This document shows, in pieces, positions 234 to 47,791 of a DNA stretch of 64,000 nucleotides (within the stretch, counting starts at the first letter, position 1; every line of letters starts with the position of its first letter). This DNA comes from Acidobacteriota bacterium (GTDB lineage Bacteria; Acidobacteriota; Terriglobia; Acidiferrales; UBA7541), in contig QHZD01000051.1 in assembly GCA_003225315.1 (NCBI GenBank), positions 1 through 64,000 on the forward strand, in the 5' to 3' direction. The notes under the pieces are model-generated. The model was not told the origin of the DNA. It did not search any database and saw nothing but the letters and a program-made list of their open reading frames with translations. Position numbers and translations under genes: made by a program.

Positions 234-268
234 TCTTATTGGGTATTCGTGCGGGATTTAAGCAGTTT

Positions 269-301
269 GCAGCAGCGCGTCTGCTGCTTTTCTTTTTTTT
301 T
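269..301 (+). terminator. Rho-independent terminator in module A
   Basis: GCAGCAG (269-275) pairs perfectly with CTGCTGC (281-287) around a 5-base loop, followed by an interrupted run of Ts to 301. With the promoter at 205-233 it would end a short, apparently noncoding RNA. Confidence 0.6.
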
Positions 302-385
302 GCACCTCCACAGCGCTGTGACAGATAAATCCCATAGAATGAGCACCTGTGGAAACGCTCGGTCTTGGCACCCCTATCCACCTTT

Positions 386-464
386 AAAATCAACACTTAC
401 AAAAGTGTGTCAAAACAAAGGACTTTAACCACCTTTAGAATGAACACTTATGAAAAACAGGGGG
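386..464. repeat. Intergenic repeat module, copy A
   Basis: The 74 bp at 388-461 align without gaps to 53979-54052, with 64 identical positions by my count. The shared core includes CAACACTTAC/GC, CAAAAGTG, TCAAAACAAA and AACACTTATGAAAAACAGG. A further degenerate unit (AGAATGAGCACCTGTGGAA) lies near 338-356. A G-rich tract follows at 460-472. The unit CACTTNNNAAAGTG is partly palindromic. It codes for nothing obvious. Confidence 0.7.
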
Positions 465-636
465 AGGGGGGGCCAGTTATTGTTAACTAGACGCCGCATA
501 AAGGGTGTCTGTCCCGAGCGACGAGCGTTGTTGCGGGCCCCGACCTGGTCGGGACCATCGGGAGCGAGGGATCTCTCCGAGGAATCCCACACTGGAAGAT
601 TCCTGATCGCCGGTTCTGTTCCCTAAGCCACGACCC

Positions 637-2100
637 TCACCGCCGCCGGTACGCCACCACGTCATCTCCGTACGCTCCGCTCGGCGTGTATGCGACCGTC
701 CTCCGGCCGAGATACTCCAAAGCCTGCGCGTGCTGCGCCGGCAGCGCATGGTTTGCCAGGAAGATGCCGCCGTGGTTCATCATGTGGGCGATGCTGCCCA
801 TTGCCAGCGCCTGCTGAAAAAGGTCGTAGTAAACCAGCACGTTGGTCGCGACCACCAAGTCGAAACCCTGCCCTTCGGGAACGTCCATGGTCTGCGTCAC
901 CACGTTCATGTCGAATCCGCGCATGTGCGCCGCATATCCCGGACGGATCGCCACGGCTCGCATCGTGACGTCCCTTACCGACGCAGGAACCGGCAGCGCC
1001 TTCACCGGCGTGCCCAGAGTCTCCCCGAACTTTTGCCAGTACGCCACGGCCTCCGGGCTCCACTCCGCGGAAACTAGTCGCGGCAGTTGCACCGTGTACG
1101 CCTGGCCCGCTCGGCCGCGCTCCGCGAGCCTCGCCACATGCGCGTTCACGGCCGCGTTCAAATCCACCGTCGCCACGGAAATTCCTTCGGCTTTTCCTAA
1201 TCCCAGCCGCGCCACCGCTTCCAGCATGGCGAACGGCTGAATGGTTTGCAGCGGATAAAAATCGTAGCCGTCGCGCTTGTCCGTAAAATCCAGTCCCGGC
1301 CCGATTACCAAAATCCGGCGCATCGTTCCGGGCTTGATCGCTCCTTTGCGCAGCATGGTTCGCAGTGTGTCTTCCAGCGCATAGTTCGGCAGCAAAGAAG
1401 TATCGACGGACAATCCCCGCTCTTGATAAAGCGTTCCTCGCGCAAGCAGCGCCGCAGCCGGGTCTGCGGCCTTTTCTGATTCCTTCAGTTTTTCCTGATA
1501 AGTGCGTTGTTCCGCGACCAGCCGCCGCAAGTTTTCTTGGAGTTTCGCTTCGACGGACTCCCTGGGAGCGCCCTTGCGCTCCAGGAACTCGCGCACAAAC
1601 CGCAGCCGCTCGTTGCGCGCCGAATTCGGCAAGGCCGCAGCGAGGGCATTGACCCGCGCGAGCGCAGCCGGCGTTAGCTCTCCGGTTTCCGATGCTCCGC
1701 TTTCTGCATTCTCCAATCGTGGAAGACTCGTATACGAAACACCGTAAAGAATCAGGTTGCTGATGGAATCTTCGACGCCTCGGTCGATGCGTCCGCGAAC
1801 TTCCGCGTCGCGTGAGCGGACCCAATCGTTCCACGCGGCAGCATCCTTGAAATCGCCACCGCTTAAGCCTGCATCAGCGAACAGCTTGAGCGTCTCCGCC
1901 GCTTCTTCAAAACGGAGAAAGCGCACAACCGGTTCTGTCGCTGAAAAAACCGTATGAAGAAAGAAGGAGAGGACCAAACACGCAAATGCCGCGCGCCTCA
2001 GCTTGACGCCTGACGTGACCTTTGACTTGACCGCTGACTTGACCCTTGACAGGAATTCGCAGACCACATGCATCGTTGCGCGCATCTTAGGGCCAAGCAT
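637..2100 (-). CDS. Membrane-anchored SAM methyltransferase-like protein
   Basis: This 487-residue protein has a hydrophobic segment near residues 36-53 (AFACLVLSFFLHTVFSA), suggesting a signal anchor or signal peptide. A long polar, helical middle follows. The C-terminal half looks like a class I SAM-binding fold: RRILVIGPGLDF resembles motif I, and LVVATNVLVYYDLFQQAL resembles the later strand and helix seen in CheR-like enzymes. It ends with a plausible MNHGGIFLAN strand. No substrate can be named. Alternative in-frame starts are at 2085 (MRATM) and 2073. An exported or membrane-tethered methyltransferase-like domain is unusual. The fold call is inference from motifs only. Confidence 0.7.
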   Translation of the reverse strand: MLGPKMRATMHVVCEFLSRVKSAVKSKVTSGVKLRRAAFACLVLSFFLHTVFSATEPVVRFLRFEEAAETLKLFADAGLSGGDFKDAAAWNDWVRSRDAEVRGRIDRGVEDSISNLILYGVSYTSLPRLENAESGASETGELTPAALARVNALAAALPNSARNERLRFVREFLERKGAPRESVEAKLQENLRRLVAEQRTYQEKLKESEKAADPAAALLARGTLYQERGLSVDTSLLPNYALEDTLRTMLRKGAIKPGTMRRILVIGPGLDFTDKRDGYDFYPLQTIQPFAMLEAVARLGLGKAEGISVATVDLNAAVNAHVARLAERGRAGQAYTVQLPRLVSAEWSPEAVAYWQKFGETLGTPVKALPVPASVRDVTMRAVAIRPGYAAHMRGFDMNVVTQTMDVPEGQGFDLVVATNVLVYYDLFQQALAMGSIAHMMNHGGIFLANHALPAQHAQALEYLGRRTVAYTPSGAYGDDVVAYRRR

Positions 2101-2153
2101 CCGGCTTAGTCAATCGCACACCGCCTAAAAGATGTTCCACTTTGTTGCGGTAT

Positions 2154-2516
2154 TCAGCTTTGCCGCTGCGGCGCGCCTGTCAGACTGTTCTTGTCACGTG
2201 GAATAAATCGGAAAAGGATAAGCGCAAGCAAACCCAGGGTGATGACGAATCCAATCAGCGCATATTTGAGTTGTGTGGCCATCTCGAAGATCGCGGTCTT
2301 GTCGGGCCCGAACTCGGGCTTGTAGTCGAGAGCGAAGATCAGCGGGACGAGAACAAGTGCGACGTTGGAGAACGCTAGCCAAAAACTGGCGCGTTCAGTT
2401 GTCCCGCAGAGTTCAATGAGCAAAGTTCTTAGCTGCTTTTTGACATACGCCACGATGCCGACAAACAAGAACGCCGCAAGGGCAACATCCAACAAGAAAG
2501 CCACGGCCGGACTCAT
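2154..2516 (-). CDS. Small membrane protein, function unknown
   Basis: This 120-residue protein begins MSPAVAFLLDVALAAF and has about three predicted membrane segments, at residues 4-24, 45-65 and 85-105 approximately. The longer upstream frame is Arg/Trp-rich and overlaps the next gene, so I chose the ATG at 2516, which has GGAG about ten bases upstream. It lies 22 bp downstream of the DCC thiol gene on the same strand and may be cotranscribed with it. I do not recognise a family. The C-terminal tail is charged. Confidence 0.6.
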   Translation of the reverse strand: MSPAVAFLLDVALAAFLFVGIVAYVKKQLRTLLIELCGTTERASFWLAFSNVALVLVPLIFALDYKPEFGPDKTAIFEMATQLKYALIGFVITLGLLALILFRFIPRDKNSLTGAPQRQS

Positions 2517-2538
2517 TTTCGTGCGCTCCTTTCCAGCT

Positions 2539-2958
2539 CTACACTCGCTTCGAGGTTTCGGATGCCGGGCAAGCCTCCGCCGCGCAGCTCCGGCTCGCGG
2601 CAACCCAGCGGTATCCCTTGCGCAGAATTTCCACCATCCCCGGAATTCTCGATATCCATACCAGCGGCCGGCCCCACCAAATCTCACGCGCCAGCGCCAC
2701 TGCCGCATCCGCGCCGCCGAATCGGCTTCCGTCGCTCAGAAGAAATTGCATTTCACGCATTAACTCTTCGCGCGACAATCCCAGCAGCGCTCCAACGCGC
2801 GGATCTTGCAGCGGCGCCAGTGCCATGCCGCGCTTCTCCAGACTCGGCGCCAGCCACCGCGCGATGCGCGTGCAGAACTTGCACTCCGCGTCAAAAAACA
2901 GCCATCCCCGCGCGTGCCGCCCTTTCCCGTCGGTGTACTCACTCACCAGCGAAATCAT
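2539..2958 (-). CDS. DCC-family thiol-disulfide oxidoreductase-like protein (DUF393)
   Basis: The 139-residue protein carries [11 protein letters not shown] (C26 and C29), the D-x-x-C-x-x-C motif that defines the DCC family. The following [29 protein letters not shown] and RSCAAEACP segments fit too. These short thioredoxin-fold-related proteins are thought to act in thiol redox chemistry, but substrates are generally unknown. It sits 18 bp downstream of the GbsR/MarR regulator gene and may be controlled by it. No signal peptide is visible, so it is probably cytoplasmic. Confidence 0.82.
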
Positions 2959-2976
2959 GATTTTTCTCCGCTGCCG

Positions 2977-3540
2977 CTATCCCGCTGCTTTTTTCCGATC
3001 GTTTCCGAGAAGCGTAATTACTTTCCCGCGCAGCTTCACTACGCCCTTCAGCGCGCCGGTTGGCATGCGGATGATTTCCTCGAACAACCCCGTCATCGCC
3101 GTCAAGAACTCCAGCATGCTCTCCAGCCGTTCGCGCGTGTATGCATCGCCCTGCGGGTTGGACTTGATCTCGCGCACACATTCCGCCAGCACGTTCAGCG
3201 TCGGATCGATCTCGCGCCGCTTCCGCTCTTCGGAAACGATGCGGAAAATTTCCCACACGTCTTTGATCGACTCGAAGTGGTCTCGCCGGTCTCCCAGCAC
3301 GTGCACCACACGCACGATGCGCCAGCCCTGCAGCTCGCGCAGGCTGGTACTCACATTCGAGCGCGCCACGGCCAGCGTCTCGGAAATTTCGTCCGCGGGC
3401 AGCGGGTGTGGCGACAGGAACAGCAGCGCGTGCACCTGCGCCACGGTGCGGTTGATGCCCCAACGCGTGCCCATTTCTCCCCAATGCAAAATGAATTTCT
3501 GGGCCACCGGGGTTAGTGTGTTTTTTGCGGGTTCGCTCAT
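2977..3540 (-). CDS. GbsR/MarR-family transcriptional regulator
   Basis: The 187-residue protein has a winged helix-turn-helix in its N-terminal half (QVHALLFLSPHPLPADEISETL, then ARSNVSTSLRELQGWRIV), a basic wing (VHVLGDRRDHFES) and a helical C-terminal half. This is the layout of GbsR-type MarR regulators, which bind a small ligand and repress nearby genes. I chose the ATG at 3540 because GGAG lies eight bases upstream. A GTG at 3549 is the alternative. A strong promoter and a perfect 16-bp palindrome lie just upstream (3594-3636), suggesting autorepression. The DCC thiol gene follows. Confidence 0.8.
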   Translation of the reverse strand: MSEPAKNTLTPVAQKFILHWGEMGTRWGINRTVAQVHALLFLSPHPLPADEISETLAVARSNVSTSLRELQGWRIVRVVHVLGDRRDHFESIKDVWEIFRIVSEERKRREIDPTLNVLAECVREIKSNPQGDAYTRERLESMLEFLTAMTGLFEEIIRMPTGALKGVVKLRGKVITLLGNDRKKAAG

Positions 3541-11175: not shown

Positions 11176-11388
11176 TTAGCCGCCGCCGACAAATTGCACG
11201 ATTTCGTAACGGTCGCCAGGTGCAACCTGGGTTTCGGTCCACTTCGGGCGCGGCAAAATTTCCAGATTCCGTTCGATGGCTACGCGTCCGGAATCGAGCC
11301 CGAGTTCGCGAAGCAATTCTATGACCGTAGCTCCGGGCTTGGCGGCGCGATTTTCTCCGTTCACGACAATTGCAATTTTAGTTTCCAT
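11176..11388 (-). CDS. thiS: ThiS-family sulfur carrier protein
   Basis: The 70-residue ubiquitin-like protein begins with a strand (KIAIVVNGENRAAKPGATV), has the helix ELLRELGLDSGRVAIERN typical of ThiS, then VAPGDRYEIVQFVGGG with the C-terminal Gly-Gly. That tail is adenylated by ThiF and loaded with sulfur for the thiazole of thiamine. No thiF, thiG or thiH is nearby, so the partner enzymes must be encoded elsewhere. It starts 3 bp after the upstream gene, so the two are translationally linked. Confidence 0.85.
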   Translation of the reverse strand: METKIAIVVNGENRAAKPGATVIELLRELGLDSGRVAIERNLEILPRPKWTETQVAPGDRYEIVQFVGGG

Positions 11389-38980: not shown

Positions 38981-41497
38981 ATGATGAACGAGAGCCAAAC
39001 GAAAGATTCCCCGTCTCGCGAGGCCGTCCTGACCTTCGTGAACGACCTGAAATTCGCTATTCGGTCGCTGGCGCGCAGCAAAGGGCTGGTAATCACCGTG
39101 GTGCTCACGCTGGCGCTCGGGATCGGCGCCAATGCGGCCATTTTCACGCTGGTGCGCGGGGTGCTCCTGCGGCCGCTCGTCAATCGTGACGAAGACCGGC
39201 TCGTTTTTATCCAACAGAGCGCGCCTGGTATCAGCCCCGGGGCCGTCCCATTCTCCGTGCCGGAAATTCAGGACCTACGGGCAAGCGTCAAGACCCTCAG
39301 CTCGTTTGGCGAGTTCTCCGTCGTAGGTTTCACCATGATCGGCCTTGGCGAGCCTCGGGAAGTTCGCGCGGGCGTCGTTGACGGCTCCTATTTTGACGTG
39401 GTGGGCCTCCATCCCGTCCTCGGCCGTCTCATCGGCCCGGAAGACGACGGTCCTAAAGCCGCCGGCGTCGCCGTCTTGACGTATCATTTCTGGGCGGGCA
39501 CTCTCAAGAGCGATCCTTCCGTCATCGGTAAGGTCCTTCGCCTCGGCACCGGCTTCGGCGATAGGTCCGCCACTATCATCGGCGTCCTCGAACCCTCCGT
39601 CCAATATCCGACAAATACCGAAATCATTGCGAACATTGTGACCAGTCCGCACCATCTCTCCGCGACCATGCAGAATGGGCGCGTTCATCGCATGACGGAA
39701 CTCTTTGGCAAGCTCACTCCCGGTGCAACTCTCGAGTCGGCGCGAGCGGAACTCCGGACCGTGCATGGAGCGATGGTCAAAGCGCATCCAGCAGAGTACC
39801 CTGCGCGAGCGGATTTCCGGATCGAGGCTAGGCTGCTGCGCGACCAGATCACCTCCCGCGCGAAGACTGTCCTGCTGGTGCTGCTCGCGGCTTCGGCGCT
39901 CATCTTCGTCATCGCTTGCTCGAACGTGGCCAACCTGATCCTCTCGAGGACTGTCCGGCGCGAGGGCGAGCTGTCGATCCGCGCGGCGCTCGGCGCAACC
40001 ACTGGTGCGCTTCGGCGTGTCCTGCTGGCGGAAAGCCTTCTGCTCTGCGGTGTTGGCGCGACGCTCGGCGTGTTGAGCGCTCGGCCCATGGTCGACATTA
40101 TGGCGCGGTACGCCTCGCGATTCTCCGTCCGCGCGCTCGACCTGACAGTGGACTCGAGTATGCTCTGGGTCGGGGCGGCGCTGGCGGTTATTGCGGCGGT
40201 GTTGCTGGCATTTGTCCCGCGGCTGCCGTCGGCTGACTCCTCGCAAGGAATCAGTCTCTCGAACGGCAGCGTGCGCATCACGGGAAGTACGAATCGCCGG
40301 CTGCGCATCTTCGCCGTGACGCAGATTGCGGCGTCTTTCGTGCTGCTGGCGGGGGCAAGCGCATTGGTCAAGACGCTGCTCTCGCTGCAAACGGCGCAGA
40401 CCGGCCTCGACATACGCCATGTCCTGGCCATCAACGTTCCCGCAATGTCCTACGGAAAAACACCGCAGCAAGTGGTCGATTTCTACAAGGACGCGATACG
40501 CCGCATTGAAGCGCTACCGGGCGTGAACAAGACGGCTTTCGGCATTGTCGTTCCCTGGCGCGACGCCGGCAGCTTTGGTCCTGGTCTCCAGTTCTCCGCG
40601 GACGGCCACGTTCATGCGCCCGGCGAAGAGGATCCTCGCGCGCAGTTACGGACCATCTCGCCCGGATTCTTTGCCGCGCTTGGAGTTCCCATCATCGCGG
40701 GCCGCGATTTCAACGCTCTCGATGGCCAAAGCAAGGAACCCGTCGTTATCGTCAGTGAAACTCTCGCGCAGCGCATGTTCCCCAATCAGGATGCCGTTAA
40801 CCGCCACGTCTACTGGACGGATCCAGTGATGAAATTCATTCCCGGGATCAGCGTCGCGCCACACCGCATCATCGGCGTCGCTGCCGATATTGACGACGAA
40901 CACGTCGTTCCTGGACCCATCATCACCATTTACAACCCTTTTGAAGAAGGTCCAATGTTTGGCGGCCGCCTCTTTATCCATACCAGCGCAAATCCTTATT
41001 CGCTGGTCACACCGGTCACTCGCATCATTCGCGATATGTCTGTGGAGCAGCCCGTGGAACGCGCTGCTACCCTCGAGGACGTTCGCGCCGAAGTTCTCAC
41101 TCCGGATCGTCTCAACACAGTGGTGTTCGGTGTCTTTGCGGCTGTCGCGCTGGCGATTGCGCTGGTTGGCGTCGCCGGCGTGCTGGCATTCTCGGTTAGC
41201 GCGCGGACGCGCGAGTTCGGCGTCCGGCTGGCCATTGGAGCGCAGCCGCGGCAACTCCTGGCGAGTGTCATTGCGGAAGGCGCCGTGATGGCGGCAGGAG
41301 GTGTCATCGCAGGCGCCGCCTGTGGGTACGTGCTGGTGCGTCTGGCGCGCAGCTCATTCGAGGACGTGAAGATGCCGGGCAGCCTGCCTGTGGTTGTATC
41401 GGTGGTCGTGCTGCTGGCCGCTGCTGTCGTAGCGTCAGTGCTGCCGGCGGCGCGCGCTGCGCGCGTCGACGTCACGGAGGCGCTGCGATCGGAGTGA
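38981..41497 (+). CDS. ADOP-family FtsX/MacB-like permease (intact)
   Basis: This 838-residue membrane protein has two repeats of periplasmic core plus FtsX domain. The N-terminal ADOP segment (NDLKFAIRSLARSKGLVITV, LALGIGANAAIFTLVRGVLL) is followed by a MacB-type core and a first FtsX domain (VLLAASALIFVIACSNVANLIL). A second core follows, then the last FtsX domain (SARTREFGVRLAIGAQPRQLL) and a VLPAARAARVDVTEALRSE end. AGGAG lies just upstream. Such permeases are thought to export or handle envelope substrates. No ATPase gene is adjacent. Its 3' end overlaps the convergent hxlR by 63 bp. Confidence 0.9.
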   Translation: MMNESQTKDSPSREAVLTFVNDLKFAIRSLARSKGLVITVVLTLALGIGANAAIFTLVRGVLLRPLVNRDEDRLVFIQQSAPGISPGAVPFSVPEIQDLRASVKTLSSFGEFSVVGFTMIGLGEPREVRAGVVDGSYFDVVGLHPVLGRLIGPEDDGPKAAGVAVLTYHFWAGTLKSDPSVIGKVLRLGTGFGDRSATIIGVLEPSVQYPTNTEIIANIVTSPHHLSATMQNGRVHRMTELFGKLTPGATLESARAELRTVHGAMVKAHPAEYPARADFRIEARLLRDQITSRAKTVLLVLLAASALIFVIACSNVANLILSRTVRREGELSIRAALGATTGALRRVLLAESLLLCGVGATLGVLSARPMVDIMARYASRFSVRALDLTVDSSMLWVGAALAVIAAVLLAFVPRLPSADSSQGISLSNGSVRITGSTNRRLRIFAVTQIAASFVLLAGASALVKTLLSLQTAQTGLDIRHVLAINVPAMSYGKTPQQVVDFYKDAIRRIEALPGVNKTAFGIVVPWRDAGSFGPGLQFSADGHVHAPGEEDPRAQLRTISPGFFAALGVPIIAGRDFNALDGQSKEPVVIVSETLAQRMFPNQDAVNRHVYWTDPVMKFIPGISVAPHRIIGVAADIDDEHVVPGPIITIYNPFEEGPMFGGRLFIHTSANPYSLVTPVTRIIRDMSVEQPVERAATLEDVRAEVLTPDRLNTVVFGVFAAVALAIALVGVAGVLAFSVSARTREFGVRLAIGAQPRQLLASVIAEGAVMAAGGVIAGAACGYVLVRLARSSFEDVKMPGSLPVVVSVVVLLAAAVVASVLPAARAARVDVTEALRSE

Positions 41498-41935
41498 CCT
41501 AAAGCGCTTCGGCGCTCGGGCCGTTTCGGCCCAGCGTTGCCGTATGGCGGATGTGAACTTCTCCTTGTCCTTTCGCATTGCGTGGACAAGCGCCTGATTG
41601 GCTGTGTCTTCGTGCGCCGCAGCCCACAGCACCATTTCTGTAAGGACTGGCGCAAGATCAATCCCTTTCGGCGTGAGCGAGTAAATTACTTTCCGTCCGT
41701 CCGATGGGTTTTTCTCGGTGGTGATAATTCCGTGAGCGATCAACTTTCGCAGGCGATCGGCCAAAATGTTCGTTGCGATTCCCTCGTAGGACCCCAGGAA
41801 CTCTTTGTAAGTGCGGAAGCCCCGCAGCATCATGTCGCGGATGATCAGCAGCGACCAGCGGTCACCGAGGATCTCCACCGAAGCATTCAGCGGACAACCG
41901 GAGCGCCGCTTGGGACTCGCCTTTTTTCCTGGCAC
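41435..41935 (-). CDS. HxlR-family winged-helix regulator
   Basis: The 166-residue protein starts with GCPLNASVEILGDRWSLLIIRDMMLRGFRTYKEFL, then EGIATNILADRLRKLIAHGIITTEKNP and the beta wing KVIYSLTPKGIDLAPVLTEMVLWA, the HxlR winged helix with its N-terminal Cys, possibly redox-sensing. Residues from about 135 (APKRFRSLRSQRLRDVDARS) form a basic tail that reads antisense into the permease gene. That may mean the original stop was lost. A 17-bp palindrome lies 22 bp upstream and is the likely operator. Confidence 0.85.
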   Translation of the reverse strand: MPGKKASPKRRSGCPLNASVEILGDRWSLLIIRDMMLRGFRTYKEFLGSYEGIATNILADRLRKLIAHGIITTEKNPSDGRKVIYSLTPKGIDLAPVLTEMVLWAAAHEDTANQALVHAMRKDKEKFTSAIRQRWAETARAPKRFRSLRSQRLRDVDARSARRRQH

Positions 41936-41974: not shown

Positions 41975-42192
41975 AACTTGTTGCAGACTGTCTTTCCCAA
42001 GCCAGCGACCTTTGGCCCGCAAGTTGAAATGGGAGATGGAAATGAGCTAGGCAACTATGAAGAAATCATCTTCCGACGCAATGGAGGTTTGGGTACCACT
42101 GAAACCGTGATGTAAACCAAAGAACTTTTGCGGCATCGGAACCAAAGGTACGCTCCTGCGGCGGCCTTACTATTGATCGGAAGGAGAGAGAA

Positions 42193-43377
42193 ATGAGCGG
42201 AGTACGGGTACTGGTTGGAACGCGCAAGGGCGCATTTGTCCTTACATCGGATGGCAAGCGCCAAAAGTGGGACGTCAGCGGACCGCATTTTGCCGGTTGG
42301 GAGATGTATCACCTCAAGGGTTCGTCCGCAGATCCGAATCGCATCTATGCGTCGCAGACCAGCGGCTGGTTCGGGCAGATCATTCAGCGCTCCGATGACG
42401 GCGGCAAGACCTGGACACAGCCAGGCACTCCGCCGGGCGAACAGACCGGCCCCGGTGGCATGCCCAAAGGGGAGAGCAATAAGTTTGTCTACGACACTTC
42501 CGCGGAAACCGGGAAGCCTCTCACCACTCATCAGTTCTACGATGGAAAGCAGCATCCGTGGGAGTTCAAGCGCGTCTGGCACCTCGAGCCTTCGTCCACT
42601 GATCCGGACACCGTCTACGCCGGAGTAGAGGACGCCGCCTTATTCCGTTCGACCGACGGCGGGAAGAATTGGAAAGAGCTCGCGGGACTGCGCGGCCACG
42701 GCACAGGTCCGCGCTGGCAGCCCGGCGCCGGTGGCATGTGCCTCCACACAATCATCTTGGATCGCAAAGATCCAAAGCGAATCTATATCGCCATCTCGGC
42801 AGCGGGCGCATTTCGGACCGACGACGGCGGCAACACCTGGAAGCCCATCAACAAAGGTCTCTACTCGCAGTACATTCCCGAACCAGCCGCCGAGGTCGGC
42901 CACTGCGTTCATCACGTTGCAATGCATACCTCCCGCCCGAATGTCCTCTTCATGCAGAAGCACTGGGACGTTATGCGCAGCGACAATGCGGGTGACTTGT
43001 GGAAAGAGGTCAGTGGCAACCTGCCGACCGACTTTGGCTTCGTGATCGACGTCCACGCCCACGAACCGGAAACCATTTACGTCGTGCCGATCAAGAGCGA
43101 CGGAGAACATTTCCCTCTTGAGGGCAAGTTGCGCGTCTACCGCAGCAAATCCGGCGGTAACGAATGGGAAGCGCTGACCAAGGGGTTGCCGCAAAAGGAC
43201 TGCTACGTAAACGTATTGCGCGACGCCATGGCCGTCGACTCGCTCGATAAATGTGGCGTCTACTTTGGCACGACGGGCGGGCAGGTGTACGGTTCCGCCG
43301 ACGCGGGCGACAGTTGGTCTCCCATCGTCGAACACCTCCCAGCCGTACTTTCTGTCGAGGTCCAGACGCTGCCATGA
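42193..43377 (+). CDS. Sialidase/VPS10-like beta-propeller protein
   Basis: The 394-residue protein repeats the blade motif S-x-D-x-G-x-x-W at least four times ([36 protein letters not shown]), with each blade preceded by hydrophobic strands such as [12 protein letters not shown]. This is the BNR/VPS10 beta-propeller fold of exo-sialidase-like proteins. No signal peptide is visible. A full blade set with His/Cys-rich loops ([13 protein letters not shown]) may bind a ligand. AAGGAGA precedes the ATG. Its stop overlaps the ATG of a MoaD-like gene. The function is unknown. Confidence 0.82.
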
Positions 43378-43670
43378 TTCGCGTCGTCCTCCCGGGCCAT
43401 CTGCGGGCGCTGGCACGCGTCGGTCCGGAGATTCAGCTTCACATCGAGGGCCCAGTCACGCAACGCTCGGTGCTCGATGCGCTCGAAGCGCAATACCCGA
43501 TGCTGCGCGGCACCATCCGGGATCATGTCACGCAGGAGCGGCGCCCGTTTTTGCGATTTTTCGCTTGCGCGGAAGACTATTCTCTTGAGCCGCCGGATAC
43601 GCCGTTTCCGGATGCCGTCGCCTCGGGAGCGGAGCCTCTGCTCATCATCGGCGCAATCGCTGGCGGATAA
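43374..43670 (+). CDS. MoaD/ThiS-like ubiquitin-fold protein
   Basis: The 98-residue protein starts [19 protein letters not shown] and ends [12 protein letters not shown], with the C-terminal Gly-Gly of MoaD/ThiS sulfur carriers. The middle ([35 protein letters not shown]) fits the fold. Translation is coupled to the propeller gene by an ATGA overlap, so the two are expressed together. I recall such pairs in other bacteria, but no role is established. It could carry sulfur or act as a protein tag. Neither is shown. Confidence 0.8.
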
Positions 43671-44715: not shown

Positions 44716-45192
44716 CTAGTCGTGCCGTGCTCCGTGGAGAACCTTCACCGCGTGCGGCAACAAGTGCGCCACGACTCCGAGGGACTCCACTGCGCCCTTG
44801 GGACTTCCCGGCAAATTGACAATGAGCGTCTTCGTTCGCACGGCGGCAGTTCCGCGGGAGAGCACCGCAGTCGGCGTTTTCTCCAGTCCTTTGCGGCGCA
44901 TTTCTTCGGAGAGTCCCGGCACGATACGGTCAGCCACGGCCTGGGTGGCTTCCGGCGTGTTGTCCCGCGGCCCGATCCCCGTTCCGCCCGTGGTCAACAG
45001 AACGTCCACGCGGCCGGAATCCGCCACGGCGCGCATCTGCTCGCGGATGCTTGCGGGATCGTCGGAGACGTGCAGCATCGACGCAATTTCCCAACCCAGT
45101 CCACGGCAAAATGCAACAACCGCGGGGCCGGACAAATCCTCTCGCTCGCCTTTTGTCACGGAGTCGCTGATCGTTAGGACTGCAACGCGCAT
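44716..45192 (-). CDS. mog: Molybdopterin adenylyltransferase (MogA/MoaB family)
   Basis: The 158-residue enzyme adenylates molybdopterin before molybdenum insertion. It carries VLTISDSVTKGEREDLSGP and VLLTTGGTGIGPRDNTPEATQAV, the substrate and nucleotide motifs, and ends NLPGSPKGAVESLGVVAHLLPHAVKVLHG. It is the last gene of the moeA-moaC-response regulator-mog run, 22 bp after the regulator. Confidence 0.9.
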   Translation of the reverse strand: MRVAVLTISDSVTKGEREDLSGPAVVAFCRGLGWEIASMLHVSDDPASIREQMRAVADSGRVDVLLTTGGTGIGPRDNTPEATQAVADRIVPGLSEEMRRKGLEKTPTAVLSRGTAAVRTKTLIVNLPGSPKGAVESLGVVAHLLPHAVKVLHGARHD

Positions 45193-45214
45193 CGGGAAGG
45201 TTTCTTCGTGAGAA

Positions 45215-45973
45215 TCACGGCGTCTCGACCGTATCGCGGTTGGCTTCGTCCATCAGCCGCATGGCTTCCATCAACAGGCCGGTGGTATTGCGCGTGGTGG
45301 TCGTCTTTGTCGAGGCATTCGCGGCGTTGAAATCAATCTCGAATTCTCCCGCCGTCCACAGAACCACTTTATAAACCGCATCATCGCCTTCGAGTTTGCC
45401 GATTTTCGCGTCGCGGCATTGCCCGCTCGCAAAATAAAGTTCGCCTTGCGCCCCGCCGCTCTGCACGATCAGCCGGCACGACTTCTGCCCCATCTCCAGC
45501 GACTGCATCAGGTCGATCATGCTCATCTCTTCGAGCCGGCCTTGAATGACGCCCGGCCGCGAAGCTTTCTTCTGCAGCTTCTCAAGGTGCAGGCGATCGA
45601 CAACCTTTTTCGTGATGCGCACCAGGTCCTTAATCAAAAATGGTTTTGGGATGAAATCCTCTACGCCATCCACCAGCGGCCTCAGGCGTTCCTCGATGTC
45701 CGGCCGGCTGGCCATGAACAGGAATGGAATGTGGCGTGTAGCTTCGCGCGCGCGCAGTTTCTCGAAGAGCTGCCTGCCATCCAGGCCGGGCATCTTGTAA
45801 TCGCACAAAATCACGTCGGGAGGAGTGTCCACAACTTTCAGGAGCGCGTCCGCGCCGTCCGTGGACGCTTCCACTAAGCAGAACGGCTCAAGTCCCTTCA
45901 CGATCAAATCGCGCACCAGCGGATTATCCTCCGCCAGGAGCAACTTTATGGTTTTGTGCCCTGCGGTGGTCAT
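45215..45973 (-). CDS. Response regulator with PATAN/DUF4388 output domain
   Basis: The 252-residue protein has a receiver domain in residues 1-125 (KLLLAEDNPLVRDLIVKGL, the phospho-Asp in ILCDYKMPGLDG, Lys in PKPF). A DUF4388/PATAN-type domain follows (QGRLEEMSMIDLMQSLEMGQ, GELYFASGQCRDAKIGKLEG, AVYKVVLWTAGEFEIDF). PATAN domains often act in protein-protein interaction in surface motility or signalling. It overlaps moaC by four bases, an odd place for a signalling gene. No kinase gene is nearby. Confidence 0.85.
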   Translation of the reverse strand: MTTAGHKTIKLLLAEDNPLVRDLIVKGLEPFCLVEASTDGADALLKVVDTPPDVILCDYKMPGLDGRQLFEKLRAREATRHIPFLFMASRPDIEERLRPLVDGVEDFIPKPFLIKDLVRITKKVVDRLHLEKLQKKASRPGVIQGRLEEMSMIDLMQSLEMGQKSCRLIVQSGGAQGELYFASGQCRDAKIGKLEGDDAVYKVVLWTAGEFEIDFNAANASTKTTTTRNTTGLLMEAMRLMDEANRDTVETP

Positions 45974-46464
45974 CGCGCGCGCCTCAGCGGCGCCATCCGC
46001 CGGCGGAAGTCCCCGCTCTTGCCACCCGTCTTTTCGACGAGGACAATGTCCGTGATTTCCATCCCTTTATCGAGGGCTTTGCACATGTCGTAGACCGTGA
46101 GGGCCGCCGCGGTAACCGCGACCAGGGCTTCCATTTCCACGCCCGTCTGGGCGGCCGTGGTCACTGTGGAATGCACTTCCACGCCATTCTGGCACAGCCG
46201 CGCGGTCACATCAATGTGCGTCAAGGGCAGTGGGTGACAAAGAGGTATCCACTCCGCGGTCCTCTTGGCTGCGGCAATTCCCGCAATCCGCGCCACTTCC
46301 AGGGGATTCCCTTTCGGGTTTTTCAGCCGCCGGACGGCGTTCACCACACGCGGTTTCATCTTTACAAAACCACGTGCCGCGGCTGTTCGCATCGTCACCG
46401 CCTTGTCGGACACGTCGACCATTCGCACTTCGCCCTTTTTTCCGTAATGCGACAGCTTCGCCAT
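45970..46464 (-). CDS. moaC: Cyclic pyranopterin monophosphate synthase
   Basis: The 164-residue enzyme with MoaA makes the first intermediate of molybdenum cofactor synthesis. MVDVSDKAVTMRTAAARGFV, AKRTAEWIPLCHPLPLTHID and DKGMEITDIVLVEKTGGKSGDF are the active-site blocks. It starts 10 bp downstream of moeA and its stop overlaps the start of the response regulator. moaA is not in this window. Confidence 0.92.
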   Translation of the reverse strand: MAKLSHYGKKGEVRMVDVSDKAVTMRTAAARGFVKMKPRVVNAVRRLKNPKGNPLEVARIAGIAAAKRTAEWIPLCHPLPLTHIDVTARLCQNGVEVHSTVTTAAQTGVEMEALVAVTAAALTVYDMCKALDKGMEITDIVLVEKTGGKSGDFRRRMAPLRRAR

Positions 46465-46474
46465 AAGCGATCGC

Positions 46475-47686
46475 CTAGACGACGTCCTTCCTCAGTAACA
46501 CCGAAACGCTCTCGCCGGCCTCGATCTTTTCTCGTTCCGCCGGCACCACTAGGAAACAGTTCGCCTGCGCCAGCGCTGCAATATCACCCGAGCCTTGCCA
46601 CTTCAACGCTTTCACCTCAGGCATCCTCCCGCGCCACTCCGCTCGTGCTGGCAAGAAATGCGTCAGCCCGGACCTTTCGTTCAACGCTTCCGCCAGTCGT
46701 GCTTCGAGCAGCGGCAACTGCCGCGCCTCCGCGCCGCACAACAAGTCAATCGCAGGCACCACAAACAATTCAAACGTCACCATCGTCGAAACCGGATTGC
46801 CCGGCAAACCGAACACAGGCTTGCCCTGGCACATCCCAAACACTGCGGGCTTCCCGGGGCGGATTGCAACGGCATCGAAAAAAAACTCCGCGCCCATGGC
46901 TTTCAGCACACTTTCCACCAGGTCATACTTCCCCATGGAGACGCCGCCCGACAGCACCAGCGCATCTTCTTTCAACCCGTGCTCGATTTTTTCTCCCAAG
47001 TCATCGATGTGGTCCGCCGCATTTCCCAGGACAATCGGCTCGCCCCCCGCGATCCGAACCTGCGCGGCAAGAGAAACGCTGTTGCTGTTTCGAATCTGAA
47101 ATGGGCCGGGCGTTTCGTCGATCAAAACCACTTCGTCACCCGTGGAAAGAATCGCCACGCGTGGCCGCTGCGCGCATTGCAATTGCACCGCCCCGACTTG
47201 CGCCGCCAGCGCCAGCTCCGCATATCCGAGCCTTATGCCGGGCTTCAGTATCGTTTGCCCAGCCGTGGCCTCGCTTCCTCTTGGGACAATGTTCTGCCCC
47301 CGCTGCACCACTCGTTCGAATCGCACAAGGTCGCCTTCGCGGCTCGTGTGTTCAATCATCACCACCGCATCCGCGCTTGCCGGAACCGCCGCGCCCGTCA
47401 TGATTTGCCAGCAAGTTCCCGCGGCCAGCGATTCCCGCACAGTGTCGCCCGCTTTGATTTCTCCCGCACACTTTAGTTGCGCACCGGGCGAAACTTCATT
47501 CGAACGGACCGCATACCCATCCCGCGTCGAGCGGTCGAACGGCGGATACTCGCGGTCCGTCTTCGCTTCTTGCGCCAGCACCAATCCCAGCGCATTCCAC
47601 ACACTCACACTGGCGACCGCGCGAGGTCCTTTTCTCTTCTCAACTTGTTCGATGACTTTCTTCCGTGCTTGCTCGTAGCTGAGCAT
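46475..47686 (-). CDS. moeA: Molybdopterin molybdenumtransferase
   Basis: The 403-residue enzyme inserts molybdate into adenylated molybdopterin. Its four-domain layout shows PPFDRSTRDGYAVRS, the ILKPGIRLGYAELALAAQVG block, ILSTGDEVVLID, LSGGVSMGKYDLVESVL, VFGLPGNPVSTMVTFELFV and a C-terminal barrel. I start at MLSYEQARKKVIEQV (47686). The longer upstream 23 codons are polar and unlike the family. It heads the minus-strand cofactor run. Confidence 0.93.
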   Translation of the reverse strand: MLSYEQARKKVIEQVEKRKGPRAVASVSVWNALGLVLAQEAKTDREYPPFDRSTRDGYAVRSNEVSPGAQLKCAGEIKAGDTVRESLAAGTCWQIMTGAAVPASADAVVMIEHTSREGDLVRFERVVQRGQNIVPRGSEATAGQTILKPGIRLGYAELALAAQVGAVQLQCAQRPRVAILSTGDEVVLIDETPGPFQIRNSNSVSLAAQVRIAGGEPIVLGNAADHIDDLGEKIEHGLKEDALVLSGGVSMGKYDLVESVLKAMGAEFFFDAVAIRPGKPAVFGMCQGKPVFGLPGNPVSTMVTFELFVVPAIDLLCGAEARQLPLLEARLAEALNERSGLTHFLPARAEWRGRMPEVKALKWQGSGDIAALAQANCFLVVPAEREKIEAGESVSVLLRKDVV

Positions 47687-47791
47687 TCTGGTTTTCTGAT
47701 GAGCTAATTCGCGATAACTCGTGGTCTGCCTGACTCGACTCTGTGTCGTCCCCAAACTCAGTGGCTCTGTGCCTCTGTGGCCAATTCCTTC

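Follow-up and report, generated by a model that had tools for sequence, protein, structure and literature searches.

A conserved gene pair of an Asp-box beta-propeller and a CysO-like ubiquitin-fold carrier, probably parts of one sulfur-handling system

Why does the gene of a beta-propeller protein overlap that of a small carrier-like protein in an acidobacterial genome? This arrangement is found in the window, i.e. the whole 64,000-nucleotide stretch that we analysed, taken from a genome of ~5.0 Mb in 57 contigs. The original prediction described a VPS10/sialidase-like propeller coupled to a MoaD/ThiS-like protein with a Gly-Gly end, and proposed that they form a sulfur-transfer or protein-conjugation system. 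Both open reading frames were found at the predicted positions, joined by the ATGA overlap. The features of the locus are as follows.

41435..41935, minus strand: divergent gene of an HxlR-family regulator (Pfam HxlR, 4.7e-19)
42181..42188, plus strand: AAGGAGAG, a ribosome-binding-like sequence before the propeller start, read from the sequence
42193..43377, plus strand: seven-bladed Asp-box beta-propeller of 394 aa, similar to 3b7f (open reading frame, Pfam, PDB and model)
43374..43377, plus strand: ATGA stop-start overlap of the propeller TGA and the carrier ATG, with probable translational coupling
43374..43670, plus strand: CysO/MoaD/ThiS-like ubiquitin-fold carrier of 98 aa, with the C-terminus GAIAGG

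The start codon of the propeller gene is ATG, and AAGGAGAG finishes 4 bases upstream of it. By eye, there is no ribosome-binding-like sequence in front of the carrier start, which fits translational coupling of the carrier to the propeller. The same spacing of -1 occurs in 16 of 47 same-strand pairs detected in a sample of 297 Acidobacteriota genomes. The propeller sequence opens directly with a beta strand, suggesting a cytoplasmic protein. The HxlR-family regulator possibly controls the pair; homologues are present at 29 of 80 related loci (80 of at least 568) or, where 1.8 kb or more of upstream sequence is available, at 28 of 68, as counted without a background control.

We analysed what kind of propeller this is. 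Two Pfam models match it above the cut-off, Sortilin-Vps10 (E=8.4e-13, with the best stretch at positions 3-61 of 446) and BNR (1.8e-7), and its relatives carry record names such as 'exo-alpha-sialidase' or 'sialidase family protein'. The signature of GH33 sialidases is an arginine triad with a Tyr/Glu nucleophile pair. Among 59 aligned propellers, which are relatives 28-84% identical to that of the window (the extracted rows do not include L104, the locus of Cupriavidus metallidurans CH34), R343 is the sole invariant Arg and neither Tyr nor Glu reaches 90% conservation at any position; the near-invariant R262 and R317 sit in Asp-boxes, as do the conserved Asp residues. Sortilin/VPS10 receptors have a ten-bladed domain and a 10CC module in a membrane receptor. 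The 394 residues analysed here align instead end to end with 3b7f (Reut_B4987, 'putative glycosyl hydrolase with BNR repeats'; E=4e-72), which has seven blades, neither the six of sialidases nor the ten ascribed to the sortilin propeller in the relevant part of PMC2716378. In the part of that 2009 study that deals with 3b7f, it is a seven-bladed Asp-box propeller with its function listed as 'Not known'.

The structural model agrees with this assignment. An AlphaFold2 model of the propeller (pLDDT 89, pTM 0.90) was built with 52 natural sequences, i.e. the 59 rows after those from plasmid records had been dropped, and 3b7f is by far its best fold match (VIA-align Z 50.7, rmsd 1.8 over 355 residues). 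The second-best fold family is GH74 (Z 29), and the entry titles of the matches include GH74 xyloglucanases, a YCF48-D1 peptide complex and sortilin complexes. Thus, both sequence and fold match the 3b7f-type propeller over the full length. The predicted beta-propeller was correct in that sense, but the protein lacks the catalytic residues of a sialidase and is not a ten-bladed VPS10 receptor domain. That it might nevertheless be a sialidase or other glycosidase encoded next to an unrelated carrier is what the public annotation and the GH74 matches would favour; we find this hardly credible, given the missing catalytic residues, the number of blades and a carrier linked to it in nearly every close relative.

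Leaving out glycines, prolines, leucines and Asp-box positions, the residues invariant among the 59 aligned propellers are T10, K12, W175, H185, S202, H240, Q255, H257, F283 and R343. The polar ones (three His, Gln, Arg and Lys) are retained even at ~30% identity, and 3b7f also keeps K12, H185, S202, H240, Q255, H257 and R343. In the model, the strand order places them at inner-strand starts and B-C turns. They may thus share one face, the top, around the propeller axis, as judged from strand order and not from coordinates.

The carrier of the window itself has no significant match to ThiS, MoaD or any other Pfam or NCBIfam model, but PF02597 (ThiS) is matched by 42 of 64 aligned carriers (E<=0.01) and NCBIfam SAMP1 by 49 of them. 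A profile of the 64 carriers first retrieved CysO of M. tuberculosis (3dwg, 3.9e-19) and the Amycolatopsis protein of 4n6e (6.3e-19). The AlphaFold2 model of the window carrier, built with the 59 of 64 rows that do not come from plasmid records, has a beta-grasp (ubiquitin) fold with a pLDDT of 92.9. Its top PDB matches are SAMP1, then the CysO chain of 4n6e, then Urm1 and MoaD. Its description as MoaD/ThiS-like fits the fold and the matches of many aligned members, and the nearest relatives of the carrier are CysO and SAMP1.

The Gly-Gly tail is kept in relatives, as the original prediction required. It is retained in 63 of the 64 aligned carriers, many of whose rows had been preselected by a Gly-Gly ending, and in 18 of the 19 rows found by the profile alone. 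Complete carriers of close relatives, which were not selected in this way, come from the 80 of at least 568 related loci; 70 of these 72 end exactly in GA[IMLV]AGG before the stop codon, and the other two have one or two residues beyond Gly-Gly. The one exception is a Nonomuraea partner of the carrier family (L102, 4808-5119), which ends in PALA and lacks Gly-Gly. Of the partners, 42 were examined: in 7 of them Gly-Gly is followed by 1-19 residues, and 2 continue into another protein. Carriers with such extensions of 1-19 residues are found at L170, L178, L179, L180, L201, L202, L203, L057 and L087. The extra residues imply that some carriers need trimming or leave their tail unused.

The pair is conserved as well. 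We sampled 297 Acidobacteriota genomes evenly; 51 of them have a match to the carrier, and 46 have a close propeller (identity of at least 68%). Every genome of the latter group also has the carrier, at most 71 bp away in 45 of the 46. Together, these genomes contain 47 same-strand pairs, of which 46 are separated by -1 to 71 bp and one by 1,757 bp. The five genomes with the carrier only comprise three weak matches, one fragment with stop codons and one case at a contig edge.

A propeller search yielded at least 568 confirmed related loci, of which 80 were kept; these are 78-95% identical, the nearest being acidobacterial MAGs. By their record titles, the 80 belong to Acidobacteria, Deltaproteobacteria, Anaeromyxobacter, Nitrospira, Chloroflexi, Gemmatimonadetes, Hydrogenedentota and Phycisphaerales, among others. 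The carrier is detected at E<1e-5 in 75 of these 80 loci (of at least 568), a contig end truncates two further ones, and no carrier is found near the propeller in L036, L039 and L043. For more distant propellers (28-46% identity), we looked at 40 loci hand-picked from the weaker matches. In 37 of them a carrier is encoded in the same stretch of ~6 kb, on either side and mostly adjacent, although L170 and L181 have it at a distance of ~800-900 bp; the ~6 kb stretches of L171, L175 and L182 contain none. On plasmids recorded for Burkholderia, Cupriavidus, Mitsuaria and Pseudomonas, the carrier gene is just upstream of the propeller gene. No carrier was found at the plasmid loci L098, L099 and L100, and the plasmid stretches of Streptomyces, Fuscovulum and Rhodobacter gave none. 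Finally, the distances among propellers and among carriers correlate (Mantel r 0.88 for 52 pairs, reached by 0 of 2000 permutations), with the effect of shared ancestry included in this value. The co-occurrence of the two genes is thus a conserved property, both in the Acidobacteriota genomes and at the distant loci.

A carrier of this type needs an activating enzyme, and the original prediction had pointed out that none is adjacent. This is true of the window but not of all relatives. The source genome has two genes for ThiF-domain proteins, on contigs C29 and C25, and the former codes for an E1-rhodanese. In 5 of the 46 genomes with the pair (G129, G161, G176, G194 and G289, from five families), a MoeZ-type E1 gene lies 110-525 bp from it, and all five products align with the C29 protein over nearly its full length. 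At a further locus, L067, an E1-rhodanese gene directly follows the carrier gene on its 3' side, overlapping its end if a GTG start is used; its product is 64% identical to the MoeZR of the source genome and, like that of C29, has a rhodanese domain. (L019 and G194 represent the same contig of 53,052 bases and were counted once.) Assuming uniform placement, 0.075 E1 genes would be expected beside a pair against the 5 observed (P ~2e-8); this expectation was computed with 45 of the 86 E1 matches, and the other 41, checked by eye, include none near a pair. The search for an E1/MoeB-like partner was therefore positive. The E1 gene is away from the pair in 41 of the 46 genomes. The presence of an E1 anywhere in all 46 genomes carries no signal, since at least 275 of the 297 genomes have one.

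The E1 gene appears rather to follow the available carriers. In nine of the 46 genomes, the only CysO-type match is the pair's own carrier. The E1 is encoded at the pair in five of these nine and in none of the 37 others (Fisher p=9e-5, with kinship ignored). The groups were defined, with all 86 matches, by whether the E1 gene has another CysO-like gene at most 3 kb away, so that grouping and E1 position are not independent; counting CysO-type matches yields the same nine genomes. Thus, genomes with a separate CysO have the E1 gene beside it, and those lacking one tend to have the E1 gene beside the pair. The pattern supports, without proving it, the view that one E1 serves both CysO and the carrier of the pair. 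In mycobacteria, MoeZR thiocarboxylates several carriers, according to the part of PMC3227635 that deals with this enzyme.

The source genome has a CysO cassette of its own, with genes for CysM (by eye), JAB, CysO and MoeZR on contig C29 (4623-7634 of L106), separate from the pair. The CysO of this cassette ends in AGGVPAME, and the residues behind Gly-Gly would have to be removed. A further CysO-like carrier is encoded beside a threonine synthase-like gene (by eye) on contig C1 (446678-446944; L108), and a ThiS gene lies in the window itself (11179-11370, minus strand; PF02597, 1.1e-13). Among the matches listed for the 46 genomes with the pair, no JAB protease gene is near the pair, and eight genomes, including G129, G161, G176 and G289, have no JAB match at all. 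Similarly, the 80 of at least 568 related loci have no JAB match, and only L059 has a CysM-like one. It therefore seems that release by Mec+, a step of the CysO pathway, lies outside this system. With a separate cassette in the source genome and no listed JAB match by the pair, we rejected a role of the pair in the CysO cysteine pathway.

The window also raises the question of molybdenum cofactor synthesis, since moaB, a response regulator gene (by eye), moaC and moeA follow one another on the minus strand at 44716-47755, ~1-4 kb from the pair. The carrier could accordingly be the MoaD subunit of molybdopterin synthase serving these neighbours, but this is very improbable. Cofactor genes are found near the pair in a single one of the 80 of at least 568 related loci (L010, with a propeller 95% identical), and the one MoaE match of the source genome adjoins a different MoaD, on contig C12. 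The proximity of these genes is probably incidental, and a role of the pair in this pathway was rejected. Other neighbours recur, mostly identified by eye, namely genes for VOC, YciI/DGPF, DoxX, AHSA1 and ECF-sigma-like proteins (L026, L040, L042, L044, L056, L060, L079, L083, L084 and others). A VOC-like gene is inserted between the propeller and carrier genes in L056 and L060, and VOC and YciI genes are annotated nearby in the Pseudomonas plasmid record L103. No second substrate enzyme is regularly linked to the pair. PADLOC, which predicts anti-phage defence, detected nothing for the propeller, the carrier or the carrier-propeller fusion described below; the matches it listed for a kinase fusion and for E1s span only the kinase or ThiF domain, and a defence role was rejected.

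Taken together, the propeller and the carrier are probably parts of one sulfur-handling system. More specifically, we propose, with a probability of about 0.5, that the pair is a functional unit in which the carrier receives a thiocarboxylate from an E1-rhodanese and the propeller acts as the dedicated sulfur acceptor or transferase. The C-terminal Gly-Gly of the carrier would be adenylated and then thiocarboxylated by the cell's MoeZ-type E1-rhodanese, using ATP and rhodanese-bound sulfur. The propeller, made from the same message, would grip the carrier tail at its top face, where the strand order suggests a candidate site lined by K12, H185, S202, H240, Q255, H257 and R343. The sulfur would then go to an acceptor, either a small molecule or a protein, or be used by the propeller itself. 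The three invariant histidines could bind a metal.

The E1 linkage and the Gly-Gly tail fit protein conjugation too. In that case, the E1-activated carrier would be joined through Gly-Gly to a lysine, and the propeller would be its main target, perhaps at K12, or a targeting factor. The invariance of K12 in all 59 aligned propellers, the SAMP1 matches of the carriers in both family and fold, and an E1 linked to the pair with no sulfur-product enzyme seen are all consistent with this mechanism. However, K12 is also located where a binding residue would be, and the rhodanese domains of the E1s point to sulfur, with the reservation that Uba4 does both sulfur transfer and conjugation. Moreover, as judged from the JAB matches listed, conjugates could not be removed by such a protease in eight of the 46 genomes. 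We therefore consider conjugation rather unlikely. Thus, the conserved pair, its tail and its E1 link fit the sulfur-transfer or conjugation system originally predicted; that interpretation is supported in part, with the sialidase/VPS10 naming of the propeller corrected.

Sister versions of the pair give additional indications. At L189 (2521-3873, minus strand), the carrier and the propeller are encoded in one frame of 450 aa, in which SGG is directly followed by the propeller, so that Gly-Gly is internal. Two propellers are fused to a Ser/Thr kinase. One is a paralogue in the source genome (L109/L002, on contig C50, 2754-4850; 698 aa), with a propeller 43-47% identical, followed by its own SGG carrier. 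The other (L178, in genome G148, 1281-3392; 703 aa) has behind it a Gly-Gly carrier gene whose product looks internally shortened. These kinase-propeller fusions hint at signalling. A third candidate, L169, was rejected, as the long frame upstream of its propeller has no kinase sequence by eye. At that locus (264-2522, minus strand) the carrier runs in frame, with no stop codon, into a TypA/BipA-like GTPase (by eye), which represents a fusion, a read-through or an assembly error.

The kinase fusions, each with a carrier gene behind it, and the peptide-binding YCF48-D1 and sortilin complexes among the fold matches would agree with a propeller that merely binds the free C-terminus of the carrier, as an adaptor that stores it or a sensor that reports sulfur status, the kinase-propeller making the signal. 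This appears unlikely to us, with only two kinase fusions seen, and because polar residues kept invariant at ~30% identity suggest chemistry and not binding alone. We thus favour the propeller as a sulfur acceptor or transferase. Tentatively, and as a real possibility, the system might be a sulfur relay in which an E1-rhodanese and a Gly-Gly carrier feed a propeller enzyme with its own active site, which would make a thio-compound or modify a protein. In sister versions, the propeller is joined either to the carrier or to a Ser/Thr kinase, and the kinase would link the relay with signalling by phosphorylation.

The individual parts belong to known kinds, namely a CysO-like carrier, a MoeZ-like E1 and an Asp-box propeller. 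The BexX-CysO system of Amycolatopsis (4n6e) resembles the pair in that its carrier, matched at 6.3e-19 by our profile, serves an enzyme other than cysteine synthase. BexX, an enzyme of 2-thiosugar synthesis, is the client of this CysO and is not a propeller. The SAMP1/Urm1 modifiers resemble our carrier in fold and in their NCBIfam model, conjugation in the pair being a proposal only, and we know of no fixed propeller partner for them. YCF48/HCF136 and sortilin Vps10p are, by their entry titles, Asp-box propellers that bind peptide ligands, but they share only 10-16% identity with the propeller. They function in other cell compartments and, to our knowledge, have no carrier partner. We know of no beta-propeller that is the client of a ubiquitin-fold sulfur carrier. 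The mycobacterial CysO-CysM-Mec+/MoeZR system also has a CysO-type Gly-Gly carrier activated by an E1-rhodanese, as described in part of PMC3227635; in contrast, the pair has no JAB/Mec+ protein, a CysM-like match in 1 of the 80 of at least 568 loci, and the propeller in the place of the acceptor enzyme. No earlier description of the propeller-carrier combination was found in a full-text literature search of partial coverage, with few subscription journals. In a survey of prokaryotic beta-grasp proteins (PMC1779556), the terms propeller, BNR and sialidase are absent by term search, and in the searchable part of another (PMC1949818) a propeller appears a single time, in the legend of a figure of domain architectures.

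If the proposed function is correct, a large group of proteins called 'sialidase', from soil bacteria as well as from some records of Pseudomonas, Mitsuaria and Rhodobacter, would carry the wrong name, and many of its members would have their place in a sulfur (or protein-modifier) pathway. There would be a testable partner for the solved structure 3b7f, and the pair would represent a simple two-gene system for finding a new sulfur acceptor.
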